NCBI GenBank assembly: GCA_030746455.1
Contig: JASLMQ010000163.1
Coordinates: 1 to 9,357 of the forward strand
DNA length: 9,357 nt
Source: Candidatus Latescibacterota bacterium
Lineage (GTDB): Bacteria; Latescibacterota; UBA2968; GCA-2709665
Direction of reading: 5' to 3'
In this document: positions 4,014 to 9,239 of the stretch, in pieces
How the letters are laid out: the number at the start of each line of letters is the position of its first letter
How positions within the stretch are numbered: the stretch's first letter is position 1
Notes under the pieces: generated by a model
Databases searched by the model: none
Seen by the model: only the letters and a program-made list of their open reading frames with translations
Told to the model about the DNA's origin: nothing
Position numbers and translations under genes: made by a program

Positions 4014-5477
4014 ATGGTGCAGATAGGACAGTGGGATCGGTTTGAGGAGGCCTTCGAGCACAGGGGGCCAGTCCAGGATCCCTACGGAGACGTGCGGCTG
4101 GAGGTTACGTACCGTCGGCCCGACGGCAGCACCGTGGACTTCTGGGGTTTCTACGACGGCGGCGACACGTGGCGCATCCGGTTTATGCCCGACCAGATCG
4201 GGAGCTGGGAGTACAGCGTACGATTCTCGGACGGATCACCCGGTACCCAAGGGACATTTGAGTGCGTGGCGTCCGACATCCCGGGGATGATCTCGCAGGA
4301 TAGAGACAATCCGGCATGGTTCGGCTTCAGCGGCCGTGGCCGCGTGCTGGTGAGAAGCCTGCACGTGGGCGACTGCTTCTTTGCGGACGAGGACAACTCC
4401 GTCACGGGAGAGCGATGGGATCCCGAGATGCGCCGCGCGTTCTTGGAGTGGGCCGGCGTGCAGGGCTACAACATGCTCTCGATTGCCAGCCACTACCTCA
4501 ATCGGGACAGCGAGGGGCGCGGGCAGGGATGGCTGACGCCGGATCTCTGGGACGGCGAGAGAGGTGCACCCTGGCCCGAGGAATACCAGAGGCTGGAACG
4601 GGTCATGGACGATCTGTCGGACCGTCGTATGATGGTCTATCCATTTGCGGGATTCTTCGGGAGGGATTCGACGGCACCTCGCGATCCGGATGAGCAGGAG
4701 CTGTACATCCGCTACACGCTCGCCCGGCTTGGCCCTTACTGGAACCTTCTGTTCATGGTCGGTGGGCCGGAGCCTCGCTTGGGAAGCAAGGCCTATCTGT
4801 CCGAGGACGACGTCGATCGGCTCGGCGGGATGATCGCATCACTCGACGTGTTCGGTCACCCGCCCTGGGCCTCCTATGTGACGCTCCAGGGCCCCAAGAC
4901 GGTGGATCGGAAGGAGCTCGGGGAGACGATCCTGCGGAATCGGCGGCCTGGGAAACCCCTGTACGCCCAGGAGACGCTGTGGCCCGGCAATGTGCTGCAC
5001 GCGCGTCGGGCCGGCCGGGACTACAGCGACGATGATATTCGCAAGAACGCCTACGTGATGCTGATATCGGGGGCGGCGATCAACTTCGGCGACATGGACG
5101 GCCTGTCATCGACCGGCTTCAGCGGACGCCCTGACCTGGGCCTGAAGGAGCAGGCGCGGCACGACGCGATCCAGGAGGTGTGGGATTTCTTCGAGACGAT
5201 TCCCTTCCAACGGATGGTACCACGCCAGGACCTGGTTGACACCGGGCATTGTCTGGCCGAGGAGGGGGAGCGGATCCTGGTCTACCTGGAGCTCTCGGGT
5301 GATGTGCGGGTGAGACTGGGGGATACTGTCTGCCGAGCGGAGTGGATCAACGCGCGACACACCCGAGACCGACGGTTTGCGGGGACCGTCAAGGACGGGG
5401 ATCGGTTGAGATCGCCGGACGACGGGGGCGACTGGTTGCTCGACCTCGTTCGCGTTGACGGTGGCGTATTGGCTTGA
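4014..5477 (+). CDS. Cytoplasmic DUF5060/DUF4038-type glycoside hydrolase
   Basis: Probable glycosidase of 487 aa in three modules. Residues 1-85 match DUF5060, a beta-sandwich: W7, F10, then VDFWGFYDGGDTWRIRFMP and G-S-W-E-Y. Residues about 100-385 look like the DUF4038 TIM barrel (the broad family that includes GH140 apiosidases), with WNLLFMVGGPEP (E253) in place of the usual N-x-x-W-x-x-G-G-(D/E) strand and KPLYAQETLW (E320) as the likely second catalytic acid. Residues about 395-485 match the putative collagen-binding C-terminal domain (PF12904): C413-L-A, VYLELSGDVRVRL, then the AEWINAR and GGDWLLDL strands. No signal peptide is present, so it probably acts on imported oligosaccharides, unlike the upstream exported lyase. 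It ends 39 nt before the first isomerase gene, suggesting one transcript. Substrate is not deducible; the catalytic acid assignment is inference. Confidence 0.82.
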   Translation: MVQIGQWDRFEEAFEHRGPVQDPYGDVRLEVTYRRPDGSTVDFWGFYDGGDTWRIRFMPDQIGSWEYSVRFSDGSPGTQGTFECVASDIPGMISQDRDNPAWFGFSGRGRVLVRSLHVGDCFFADEDNSVTGERWDPEMRRAFLEWAGVQGYNMLSIASHYLNRDSEGRGQGWLTPDLWDGERGAPWPEEYQRLERVMDDLSDRRMMVYPFAGFFGRDSTAPRDPDEQELYIRYTLARLGPYWNLLFMVGGPEPRLGSKAYLSEDDVDRLGGMIASLDVFGHPPWASYVTLQGPKTVDRKELGETILRNRRPGKPLYAQETLWPGNVLHARRAGRDYSDDDIRKNAYVMLISGAAINFGDMDGLSSTGFSGRPDLGLKEQARHDAIQEVWDFFETIPFQRMVPRQDLVDTGHCLAEEGERILVYLELSGDVRVRLGDTVCRAEWINARHTRDRRFAGTVKDGDRLRSPDDGGDWLLDLVRVDGGVLA

Positions 5478-5516: not shown

Positions 5517-6473
5517 ATGAACAAGCTGGCGATCATATCGGGATTCCTGGGCGGGACCCACAACCGCTACATGGTCTACCAGGAGAACCGCACACTGGCC
5601 GAGAAGGTGGCGATGGCCGCGCAGGTCGAGGGGGCAGACGGCCTGGAGCTCTGCTATCCCGCGGACTTCGAGGATGTGGGTGAGCTCAAGGAGCTGCTCA
5701 GTCGGTACAGCCTAGGCGTTTCGGCGATCAACTTCCGATCTCGGAGATCGGGTAAGTGGTGGCGAGGGTCCTTCGTATCTGAGAAGGGCAACGAGAGGCA
5801 GGAGGTGGTGGACGACCTGAAGCGGGCCATGGACTTCTCGGTGGAGCTGGGATGCAGCCGCGTAACCACGTGCCCGCTCAACGAGGGGACCGACAACCTC
5901 TTCGAGGCCGATCCGGTCAGGCTCTGGGACCACGCCGCGGAGACCTTTACGGCCGCGTGCGAACACAACCGCGACGTGCGGGTGTGCATCGAGTACAAGA
6001 TCAACGATCCGATGGCCCGGTGCCTCTTCGGCTCGGCGGGGGAGACAGCGAGCTTCGCCGCGCAAATCGGAGCCAACAACCTGGGCGCCACGATGGATAT
6101 CGGTCACGCGTTCCTCGCGGGCGAGCGTCCCTCCCAGGCGGCGGTCCTGCTGCACAAGACGAACCGGCTGTTCTACGTCCACGTCAACGACAACGACGGG
6201 GTCTGGGACTGGGACATGCTGCCCGGGGCCTATCACTTCTGGGAGACGATCGAGTTCTTCTACACGCTGCGCAAGCTGGGCTATGACAACGACTGGTACG
6301 GCTTCGACGTGTTCCCGAAAGAGATCGACACGGTCGAGAACTTCAGCGCAGCGATGCACCTCACACGGAAGCTGGAATCCATCACGGACCGGATCGACAC
6401 GGAGGAGATGGCGAGGCTGATGACGGAGCGGAATCCGGCGAAGACGATTCCTTACCTTTACTCGCTGATCTGA
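5517..6473 (+). CDS. Xylose-isomerase-like TIM-barrel sugar isomerase, paralog 1
   Basis: A 318-aa protein of the AP-endonuclease-2/xylose-isomerase-like fold (PF01261). Seen ligand pattern: E159 in CIEYK, D194 and H197 in MDIGH, H222 in HVNDND, D231 and D233 in DWDML, and D264 in GFDVFPK. In L-rhamnose isomerase, metal 1 is held by Glu, Asp, His and Asp, and metal 2 by a His in D-x-G-H plus an Asp-x-Asp pair. All of these have counterparts here. D-tagatose/psicose 3-epimerases use Glu where this protein has D264. Aldose-ketose isomerisation is therefore a better guess than C3 epimerisation; this is inference. There is no signal peptide, so it is cytoplasmic. It follows the glycosidase gene closely and has a close paralog downstream; their N-terminal segments share 18 of 28 residues (from RTL to DFE). 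The sugar handled is unknown. Confidence 0.82.
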   Translation: MNKLAIISGFLGGTHNRYMVYQENRTLAEKVAMAAQVEGADGLELCYPADFEDVGELKELLSRYSLGVSAINFRSRRSGKWWRGSFVSEKGNERQEVVDDLKRAMDFSVELGCSRVTTCPLNEGTDNLFEADPVRLWDHAAETFTAACEHNRDVRVCIEYKINDPMARCLFGSAGETASFAAQIGANNLGATMDIGHAFLAGERPSQAAVLLHKTNRLFYVHVNDNDGVWDWDMLPGAYHFWETIEFFYTLRKLGYDNDWYGFDVFPKEIDTVENFSAAMHLTRKLESITDRIDTEEMARLMTERNPAKTIPYLYSLI

Positions 6474-6786: not shown

Positions 6787-6792
6787 ATGTCG

Positions 6793-7767
6793 ATGAAGTG
6801 GAGGTTCAGTGCCAATGCGGGGTTCTTTGGGGCCCGGCGGGACCGGTTCGTTCAGTACCAACCGGTTCGTACCCTGGAAGAGAAGTTCGGCCTGGTGGCG
6901 CAGGTCGAAGGCGTCACGGGGATCGAGCTCAAGTACCCACTCGATTTCGAGAAACCCTGCGCCCTGAGAGCGCTCCTCGATCGGCACGGCCTGGCGGTGT
7001 CCGCGGTGAACGTAGACCTCAAGGACGTAGCGCACTTCCGGCACGGCGCGCTTTCGGCCGTCGATCCCGAGGTACGGAGTCACGCCGCGGGTCTCCTTCA
7101 GAGGGGGATGGATGCAGCCGCCGAGTTCGGCGCGGGGCTGGTGACCACCTGTCCACTGGCGGACGGTTATGACTATCCCTTCCAGATCGACTACACGCGG
7201 GCATGGAACAACCTTGTGGGGACGGTGAAGGCGGCGACTTCCCATCGGTCCGACGTCCGGCTTGCGCTGGAATACCAGCCGCACGAGCCCCACGCCCACA
7301 TCCTGCTGGACAACGTGGGCAAGGTGCTCCACGTGTACGCGGAGGTCGAAGCCCCGAACCTGGGGGTCAACCTCGATGTGGGGCACTCCCTGGCTGCAGG
7401 AGAGTCCCCCGCAGAGGCCGCGGCGCTGCTCGCAACGAAGGGCCGCCTGTTCTACCTCCATTCTAACGACAACACGGGCGACGGGGGCGACTGGGACATG
7501 ATGTCGGGGTCGGTCCATTTCTGGCACTGGCTGGAGCTCTTGCACACGCTCCATCGCGTGGGGTACGAGGGGTGGATCGGGGCGGACATCGCGCCCAAGC
7601 ACATGGGCCCGGTGGAGGCCTACGACGTGAATTTCACGATGGTCCGGCGGATGACCCGAGTCCTCGATCGACTTGGATGGGATGCGGTCTCCGAGCAGGT
7701 TCAGAAGACCGGGAGCAGCGCGGAGACATACAGGTTCCTCACGTCGTTCATGGATTCGGATCCATAG
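6793..7767 (+). CDS. Xylose-isomerase-like TIM-barrel sugar isomerase, paralog 2
   Basis: A 324-aa protein from the chosen ATG. Seen: E160 in ALEYQ, D195 and H198 in LDVGH, H223 in HSNDN, D233 and D235 in DWDMM, and D265 in GADIAPK. These line up almost residue for residue with paralog 1, so the complete two-metal isomerase set is kept. Differences that may set substrate choice include Lys161 of paralog 1 becoming Gln162 in EYQPHEP, and a two-residue longer metal-2 loop (NTGDGGDWD). An HFW motif follows the metal-2 site in both. Family knowledge: aldose-ketose isomerases or epimerases on monosaccharides; the sugar is unknown. Cytoplasmic. The frame is open back to 6526, but that extension crosses the inverted-repeat element and lacks homology. 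The stop lies 20 nt before the acetyltransferase start, which suggests co-translation or a shared transcript. Confidence 0.82.
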   Translation: MKWRFSANAGFFGARRDRFVQYQPVRTLEEKFGLVAQVEGVTGIELKYPLDFEKPCALRALLDRHGLAVSAVNVDLKDVAHFRHGALSAVDPEVRSHAAGLLQRGMDAAAEFGAGLVTTCPLADGYDYPFQIDYTRAWNNLVGTVKAATSHRSDVRLALEYQPHEPHAHILLDNVGKVLHVYAEVEAPNLGVNLDVGHSLAAGESPAEAAALLATKGRLFYLHSNDNTGDGGDWDMMSGSVHFWHWLELLHTLHRVGYEGWIGADIAPKHMGPVEAYDVNFTMVRRMTRVLDRLGWDAVSEQVQKTGSSAETYRFLTSFMDSDP

Positions 7768-7787: not shown

Positions 7788-9239
7788 ATGGCTGCACACG
7801 TGACGCAGACGGACATAGAGAATGGGCTCAGGGAGCTGGGACTGGGTGATGGGGACATCGTCCTGGTGCACAGCTCACTGTCGAGCCTTGGCCACGTTGA
7901 AGGAGGCGCAGAAACCGTTGTCGAGGCTATCCTGCGGGTGCTCGGTCCAAGCGGAACGCTGGTCGTGCCGACGTTCGGGAGTTTCGGCGTGATCACGGAC
8001 GTGGTGAAGGACCTGCCGCACGCGGTACACAGCATCCATCCGAAGGCATCGGTGGCCGCGGTGGGCGCGCAGGCGGAGGCCCTCTGTCGCGATCACTGGA
8101 AGGCGGAGACCGCGCACGGCACGGACACACCGTACGTACGCATCGCGGATCTGGCCGGATACGTGTGCCTGCTGGGGGTGGACCAGGACCGCAACACGAC
8201 GCTCCACGCGGTGGAGGAGCTCCTTCGTCTACCCTACCTGAAGCCGACAGATCGATTTGCGTTCGAGACGCCCGAGGGCGAGGTCACGATGTCGTGGCCA
8301 CATTTCCCGGGACCCCACCGGGACTTCATCGGGCTGGACGCGGACCTACGCCGACGGGGGATCGTGAAGCTCGGGCGCGTCGGGGACGCGGCCGTGCGGC
8401 TGATGAAGTCGCAGGAGACGATCGACTACCTGCTCGAAGTGGGACGGTCGAATCCGGCGTTCGCACTGTGCGAGAATCCGAACTGCGCGGACTGCGTTGG
8501 GCAACGGTCCGACTTGCGGCGCGATCGGTTTGGGAGGGAGCCGTTCCGGGTGGTGGCATCGGCCCGGCTGGCGGGGGATTGGGTTTCGGAGATCCTGGCG
8601 AGCTGCGGCGCTGCAGGGATCGATGCCGTGGAACTGGACGGCCTGGCCGGCCGGCCCGTGGATGCGCTGCCGACCGATGAGGTGCAGCAGGCGGTGGAGG
8701 CCCTGCGCGACGGGGGGTGCGAGGTCGCCGCGCTGAGGGCGTCGGCTTCGGGGGGTCGGTCTCGGGACCTGATTCTGACGGCGGCGGGATGCGAGGTGGA
8801 ACGAGTGGTGTTCCCTCTGGGAGTGGATTCGAACACTCTGTCCGTGGAGGCACAGGAGGCGGGGCTGTCCGTGTCGTTCGTCAACCTCGCGATGGGTGGG
8901 GGCAAGGTGTTCGATATGATGGAAGAGGTCCGCGCCGTCAACCCCGATGCGGGGTTGACTTTCAGTGCGACAGGCTTCGTGTCGGTCGGCGAGAAGCCGT
9001 TCCTCCAGAGCTACGGGAGCAAGCTGAAGCGGTTCGTCGATCAGCTCGATGTGGAAGACCGGACTTTCTCGGGCGAGGCGACGACATTGGCGGGAGGCAA
9101 TGCCGAGATCAAGGAGCTGGTGTCGATCCTGCGATGCTCGCACTTCAGCGGTACGATGCTCCTGGGGGCAGGGAATCGGGAGGCGGGAGACCTCAGACAG
9201 GCGGCGGAAAGGTTTGAGAGGATGCTGCGGGAGCTTTGA
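7788..9239 (+). CDS. AAC(3)-family N-acetyltransferase fused to a degenerate sugar-isomerase-like domain
   Basis: A 483-aa protein. Residues 1 to about 225 match the aminoglycoside 3-N-acetyltransferase family (PF02522; acetyl-CoA-dependent): LVHSSLSSLG (27-35), GPSGTLVVPTF (53-63), the active-site-type HPKAS (H84-S88), then LLGVD and NTTLHAVEE (H140, E143). A CENPNCADC cluster (C228, C233, C236) follows. Residues about 253-483, absent from ordinary AAC(3) enzymes of about 260-290 aa, read as a divergent xylose-isomerase-like barrel: AGIDAVELDG, a GEKPF...LKRFVDQLDVED stretch, AGGNAEIKELVSIL and SGTMLLGAGN. At the four positions where such barrels carry Glu, Asp, His and Glu ligands it has non-ligand or altered residues, so the domain looks inactive. 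In a sugar-degradation locus, an amino-sugar acceptor is more likely than an antibiotic; this is inference. It follows isomerase 2 by 20 nt. Acetyltransferase call firm, C-terminal domain call moderate. Confidence 0.82.
   Translation: MAAHVTQTDIENGLRELGLGDGDIVLVHSSLSSLGHVEGGAETVVEAILRVLGPSGTLVVPTFGSFGVITDVVKDLPHAVHSIHPKASVAAVGAQAEALCRDHWKAETAHGTDTPYVRIADLAGYVCLLGVDQDRNTTLHAVEELLRLPYLKPTDRFAFETPEGEVTMSWPHFPGPHRDFIGLDADLRRRGIVKLGRVGDAAVRLMKSQETIDYLLEVGRSNPAFALCENPNCADCVGQRSDLRRDRFGREPFRVVASARLAGDWVSEILASCGAAGIDAVELDGLAGRPVDALPTDEVQQAVEALRDGGCEVAALRASASGGRSRDLILTAAGCEVERVVFPLGVDSNTLSVEAQEAGLSVSFVNLAMGGGKVFDMMEEVRAVNPDAGLTFSATGFVSVGEKPFLQSYGSKLKRFVDQLDVEDRTFSGEATTLAGGNAEIKELVSILRCSHFSGTMLLGAGNREAGDLRQAAERFERMLREL

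Follow-up and report, generated by a model that had tools for sequence, protein, structure and literature searches.

The window analysed here is a stretch of 9,357 nucleotides from a Candidatus Latescibacterota bacterium (assembly GCA_030746455.1, contig JASLMQ010000163.1), in which one gene (Table 1) encodes an aminoglycoside 3-N-acetyltransferase (AAC(3))-type domain fused to a xylose-isomerase-like barrel without metal ligands. This description is based on the two-domain fold prediction, the conserved His/Glu pair of the acetyltransferase half, the loss of metal ligands from the barrel, and the link between the fusion and one family of PF04199 "cyclases". The fusion itself had been proposed in an earlier note, made from the letters of the window alone, and is borne out by the fold prediction, the retained dyad and the register of the ligands; the association with a cyclase whose metal site is also altered is the result added here. 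Together, these features suggest a two-gene N-acetyltransferase module, the substrate and mechanism of which we infer. We tentatively propose, giving it not quite an even chance, that the fusion is an N-acetyltransferase of the Antibiotic_NAT fold whose acceptor is a small amine and not an aminoglycoside, with the metal-less barrel and the altered cyclase serving as substrate-handling parts.

A conserved two-domain architecture

Relatives of the fusion were collected from 5.8 billion proteins, of which 7996 candidates were scored and 796 retained, and its loci were found by an exact-peptide scan, the best 80 of 115 confirmed loci being used; divergent relatives are under-sampled by both the exact-peptide scan and the set of 7996 scored candidates. 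Residue counts given below out of 80 refer to the window and 79 loci, after omission of L067 (whose fusion is truncated at the end of its contig), L033_4814 (the other AAC(3) protein of its locus), and a duplicate row of the window. The best 120 of the 796 relatives, including the window's own protein, are 446–514 residues long, and for 119 of them the match spans 97% or more of the query. Since these relatives are near full length, the two-domain architecture is not a chance fusion, and the search for it suggested in the earlier note thus finds it in other proteins.

The family is most frequent in Lentisphaerota and scattered across at least ten further bacterial phyla. In a quick tree, the deep forks of which are unsettled, a divergent group with members from Armatimonadota, Omnitrophota, Ratteibacteria, planctomycetes, an opitutal, and a spirochaete falls outside the clade that holds the window. 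The family is also broader than the branch examined, as two paralogs from the genomes of L001 and L002 (L081:7142-8896 and L083:6526-7875) hold, as judged by eye, an AAC(3) domain with a longer insert and what seems to be a degenerate barrel. Another kind of AAC(3) fusion is seen in L033:4814-7234 and L085:4028-6655, where the AAC(3)-type domain is C-terminal and the front half reads, also by eye, as M28-type peptidase-like.

The acetyltransferase half

In a Pfam scan of the fusion, PF02522 (Antibiotic_NAT) is the only family above its cut-off (151 bits against 25), with a match that reaches approximately residue 215. H140 aligns with His154, the catalytic residue of AAC(3)-IVa, as well as with the His mutated in BA2930 H183A; this residue and E143, which we assign as the putative Glu of the dyad, are present in all 80 sequences as well as in all of the best 120 of the 796 proteins. 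Acetyl-CoA-dependent N-acetyltransferase activity is predicted for this half. Other Antibiotic_NAT proteins with solved structures, such as BA2930, YokD, and FrbF, are chains of 265–286 residues with no barrel, and the window protein likewise differs from AAC(3)-IVa (Group 1; PDB 6mn3) by the addition of a barrel of approximately 230 residues.

The domain is followed by a segment resembling the zinc clasp of AAC(3)-IVa, whose Cys-rich extension is reported to form a zinc site of the C3H1 type that is shared by Group 1 (PMC8956665). C228, C233, and C236 of the window align with this extension, C233 and C236 falling on Cys and C228 one residue from the His. They are kept in 76, 77, and 76 of the 80 sequences, respectively, the losses being confined to the same four loci, in one of which C233 survives. 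H177 is a candidate for the fourth zinc ligand, yet it persists in the four loci that lose the cysteines.

The acidic residues of AAC(3)-IVa named as aminoglycoside contacts in the same paper (PMC8956665) are D67, E185, D187, and E249, in a numbering recovered here by a two-residue offset that places the cysteines of AAC(3)-IVa at 247 and 250. D67 lies in a segment that the window protein does not have, E185 and D187 are replaced by P174 and P176, and E249 corresponds to D235, so that three of the four contacts listed there are absent. Additionally, all five AAC(3) models of NCBIfam that are matched score far below their cut-offs, the best at 117.7 against 270 and the AAC(3)-IV model at 104.2 against 420. 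Because the listed contacts are mostly gone and these scores are so low, an aminoglycoside is an unlikely substrate, which gives indirect support to the non-antibiotic substrate suggested in the earlier note. An ordinary aminoglycoside-resistance enzyme that has merely acquired an extra domain is thus very improbable, and the association with the cyclase described below argues against it as well.

The barrel and its lost metal site

Residues ~250–483 are predicted to fold as an eight-stranded TIM barrel of the xylose-isomerase-like kind (model pLDDT 94.7), as the earlier note had anticipated, and both the structure models and the fold matches place it in the PF01261 superfamily. The PF01261 profile itself matches 15 of 51 barrels at an E-value of 0.01 or better, the window's own barrel not being among them. 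From rank 16 onwards, at E ~6e-6 and weaker, Foldseek also returns TIM barrels of other kinds, for example pyruvate kinase, and the assignment to the family is therefore based mainly on VIA-align, hhalign, and Pfam. A search of the PDB sequences with a single barrel profile was not used, as its hits (best E 0.0028) were to designed proteins or due to chance.

The register of the metal ligands was obtained from four standalone barrels found with the barrel profile. Three of them (P0275, P0277, and P0278) align the E-D-H-E set of sugar isomerases and epimerases opposite V365, S393, D421, and G460 of the window, and the fourth (P0276) keeps only the first two ligands. The intact standalone relatives point to the probable ancestry of the fused barrel. 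They also correct part of the earlier assignment, in which S393 and G460 hold, and Asn366 and Gln419 prove to be off by one and two residues and are replaced by V365 and D421. The register at the His strand rests on these standalone relatives because hhalign alone sets Q419, or residue 422 in the divergent clade, on the ligand His; a His at 419 is found in 3 of the 80 sequences.

With this register, the metal set is missing from the window barrel, in agreement with the catalytically dead domain foreseen in the earlier note, and no sequence of the 80 has a full set. If Gln is also accepted at 460, 67 sequences still have none of the four ligands, 10 have one, 2 have two, and 1 has three. Among the best 120 of the 796 proteins, 117 lack any barrel ligand (with Asp allowed at 460). 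Glu at 365 is retained in 11 rows of the divergent clade, which looks like a stepwise loss of the ligands. In comparison with the PF01261 barrels 3p6l, Art22 (8z1i), and UlaE (3cqj), the window barrel differs in that all four of its metal ligands are replaced and an acetyltransferase is fused to it. An isomerase-like barrel is also fused to another enzyme in 5hmq, compared here by architecture, but its partner, a 4-hydroxyphenylpyruvate dioxygenase, is unlike that of the window.

A cyclase with an altered metal site as the usual partner

A PF04199 cyclase is encoded in 60 of the 80 loci. It lies within 3 kb of the fusion and on the same strand in 59 of them, and within 300 bases in 52, L053 being excluded from both counts for its N stretch. 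A single-chain cyclase–AAC fusion in L053 was ruled out, as its open reading frame (ORF) crosses this stretch of the scaffold; its cyclase is counted among the 60. In the window, three genes separate the cyclase from the fusion.

The association extends to whole genomes. In one phylum with 194 genomes, the fusion is found in 15 (E 1e-60 or better) and the cyclase in 16 (E 1e-25 or better), which include all 15 (15/15 fusion genomes versus 1/179 others; hypergeometric p 2e-21, a nominal value that ignores the kinship of the genomes). In a second phylum, with 68 genomes, both genes occur in two genomes and neither occurs alone (2/2 versus 0/66), so that the pooled figures are 17/17 versus 1/245. 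These sets include G011, G013, and G005, known beforehand to carry the fusion; the genomes come without completeness values, and those that are related do not count as independent. The fusion and the cyclase are on separate contigs in G011 and G013. Among 20 genomes without the cyclase in the locus, 16 encode it elsewhere, two of them with weak matches (E 3.7e-27 and 8.8e-19).

Bacterial kynurenine formamidase (KynB) also belongs to PF04199, and its ligand residues are given as His50, His54, Asp56, His60, His161, and Glu173 (PMC4243253). In an alignment of 59 cyclases (the window included and L053 excluded), the comparison covers the first four ligands, the equivalents of His161 and Glu173 not being confidently alignable. 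The window cyclase has M45 and Y49 in place of His50 and His54. The first position holds Met in 49 of the 59 rows and His in 2, and the second holds Tyr in all 58 rows with a letter there. In contrast, the equivalents of Asp56 and His60 (D51 and H55 in the window) are kept, with Asp in 51 and Glu in 7 rows for the former, and His in 58 of 58 for the latter. By this alignment, two of the metal-binding histidines of kynurenine formamidase are replaced in the cyclase family.

The earlier note had suggested, as an alternative to sugar recognition, that the barrel may dock isomerases, and had pointed to two intact ones in the locus. These share its fold and lie in the same same-strand series, separated from each other and from the fusion by 313 and 20 bases, respectively. 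In a tally of 141 flanking genes chosen by script, in batches of 70 and 71 (25 families each listed out of 87 and 94), PF01261 is matched by two of the 71 genes of one batch, and it does not figure in the 25 families listed for the other 70. However, a profile of both window isomerases and their relatives finds a match in one of the 80 related loci, and in a genome-level test of isomerase 1 a relative occurs in 2/15 fusion genomes versus 7/179 others of the same phylum (Fisher p 0.15). The docking role is therefore not supported, the usual partner being the cyclase, and we regard it as highly improbable.

Two other arrangements were observed next to the fusion. In four related loci, L044, L048, L065, and L066, an APH-type phosphotransferase gene lies directly 5' of it, in the place of the cyclase, which is encoded elsewhere in those genomes; one such protein was tested, and PF01636 is matched by 4 of the 71 flanking genes. 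In L025, L027, L038, and L060, all from Lentisphaerota and without an adjoining cyclase, the fusion directly precedes a gene for a protein of 724–749 residues, which is a RecD2-type helicase in the one tested.

Possible function of the module

According to our proposal, the acetyltransferase half would be active and dependent on acetyl-CoA, and the barrel, formerly a metal-dependent isomerase, would now hold or orient the acceptor as a pocket or lid free of metal, replacing the acidic minor subdomain, which would have been lost or shortened in this branch. The cyclase would act alongside the fusion, either as a second binding subunit or as a modified hydrolase that takes part in the same step or in the same pathway. 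In a bolder and rather unlikely version, the two proteins would form a self-contained system, in which an isomerase barrel and a kynurenine-formamidase-like cyclase have both given up their metal and come to handle the substrate of a single AAC(3)-type acetyltransferase. The zinc-clasp AAC(3) enzymes known from the clinic would in that case be related to an enzyme of metabolism.

D424, E440, and E443 are found in all 80 sequences and N366 in 79, and this near-invariance indicates that the barrel is still under selection. The same residues could speak for a barrel that is a second working catalytic domain, with a metal-free chemistry based on its retained polar residues (E282, D284, R317, N366, D424, E440, and E443), making the protein bifunctional. 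Nevertheless, N366, D424, and E443 are also found in the intact standalone relatives, a point that fits a catalytic inheritance but may equally mean that they are structural, and the sugar isomerases and epimerases matched by the fold are, as far as known, metal-dependent. Moreover, the loops at the mouth of the barrel are not conserved above the background, and we consider bifunctionality unlikely.

A role of the barrel as a structural or dimerisation module alone, kept for the stability of the fused protein, appears doubtful to a like degree. It would agree with the similar conservation of the mouth and bottom loops, with the lower conservation of the barrel (means of 0.40–0.52 by element) compared to the AAC domain (0.565), and with the variable oligomeric state of Antibiotic_NAT proteins reported in PMC8956665. 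On the other hand, the whole barrel persists in homologs of ~480 residues from many phyla, with invariant polar residues near the ends of its strands.

Three observations weigh against our proposal. The mouth loops are not more conserved than the bottom loops (mean 0.424 versus 0.451, permutation p 0.75), and a conserved binding pocket as a whole is therefore not supported; the cyclase was not found in 4 of the 20 genomes that lack it at the locus (drafts whose completeness is not given); and the neighbours beyond the cyclase are mixed, including RecD2, RecA, and CinA.

The likeliest class of acceptor would be an amino sugar or an aminocyclitol, a lead drawn from the minority of loci in which the fusion is accompanied by a sugar aminotransferase, an enzyme resembling inositol dehydrogenase, and a creatininase-like hydrolase. 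Of the 80 loci, 15 have creatininase-like proteins within 3 kb of the fusion, 13 have DegT-profile matches, 10 have Gfo/Idh/MocA proteins, and 5 have ROK proteins; in L026 and L029, the gene matched by the DegT profile is also matched as a class I/II aminotransferase. Of the NCBIfam models, inositol 2-dehydrogenase is the best match for the one Gfo/Idh/MocA protein tested, and the two creatininase-like proteins tested also match the model of the ring-opening hydrolase IolN, all below the cut-offs. The creatininase-like, DegT, and Gfo/Idh/MocA genes co-occur in loci from Lentisphaerota and, partly beyond 3 kb, in loci from Opitutales (L070), Planctomycetes (L071), and Spirochaetales (L074). In L074, L070, L071, and L016–L021, these genes, sometimes with ROK, surround the fusion in varying sets. 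Such neighbours suggest a sugar or cyclitol that is oxidised, aminated, and acetylated, as a lead only, because most flanking genes are mixed and only a minority of loci supply the link to amino sugars. The barrel may play a part in sugar recognition, as put forward in the earlier note.

AAC(3) enzymes have been studied mostly as resistance enzymes, and to our knowledge the role of many of their environmental relatives is open. The fusion family represents a large AAC(3) branch with an intact dyad, a metal-less isomerase half, and a frequent partner protein, where a non-antibiotic role can be directly tested with two genes. It suggests that environmental bacteria have an acetylation system not described before, and does not suggest antibiotic resistance; the public name "aminoglycoside 3-N-acetyltransferase" carried by its relatives could cause false resistance calls. 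In addition, two metal-enzyme folds may here have stayed under strong constraint after losing metal ligands. A literature search covering the titles and abstract beginnings of open-licence papers found no account of the AAC(3)–barrel fusion or of its pairing with the cyclase.

Other genes of the window

Table 1. Genes and domains of the window discussed in the text.
Feature	Position	Strand	Evidence
AAC(3)–pseudo-isomerase fusion, 483 aa	7788..9239	+	ORF; AGGAGG, ribosome-binding-site-like, 5' of ATG
Antibiotic_NAT domain, residues 1–224, dyad H140/E143 (E143 putative)	7788..8459	+	
Zinc-clasp-like segment, residues 225–240, C228/C233/C236	8460..8507	+	Cys counts in 80 sequences
Xylose-isomerase-like TIM barrel without metal ligands (V365, S393, D421, G460), residues 250–483	8535..9236	+	Models, fold matches, hhalign, ligand register
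PF04199 "cyclase" partner, 207 aa	3201..3824	+	PF04199 E 2e-7, 31.7 bits vs 23.1
Intact xylose-isomerase-like protein 1, local neighbour	5517..6473	+	PF01261 E 1.7e-24
Intact xylose-isomerase-like protein 2, local neighbour	6787..7767	+	PF01261 E 3.1e-24; ATG 6787 preferred, by position of MSMKWRF
DUF5060 protein, weak apiosidase-like match, local neighbour	4014..5477	+	PF16586 E 1.7e-19
Heparinase II/III-like protein, 1018 aa	3..3059	+	

The fusion gene is the last of a same-strand series that comprises, in order, the heparinase-like protein, the cyclase, the DUF5060 protein, the two isomerase-like proteins, and the fusion, with gaps of 141, 189, 39, 313, and 20 bases. No counterpart of the DUF5060 protein was found by phmmer among the ORFs chosen in the other loci. 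A heparinase or glycosidase link was rejected, since phmmer found no counterpart of these two window genes in the 80 loci; PF07940 is matched by 2 of the 71 flanking genes of one batch. The heparinase-like protein itself shows very weak matches of zinc-binding type near residues 95–146 (E 0.06 and 0.27), possibly by chance.
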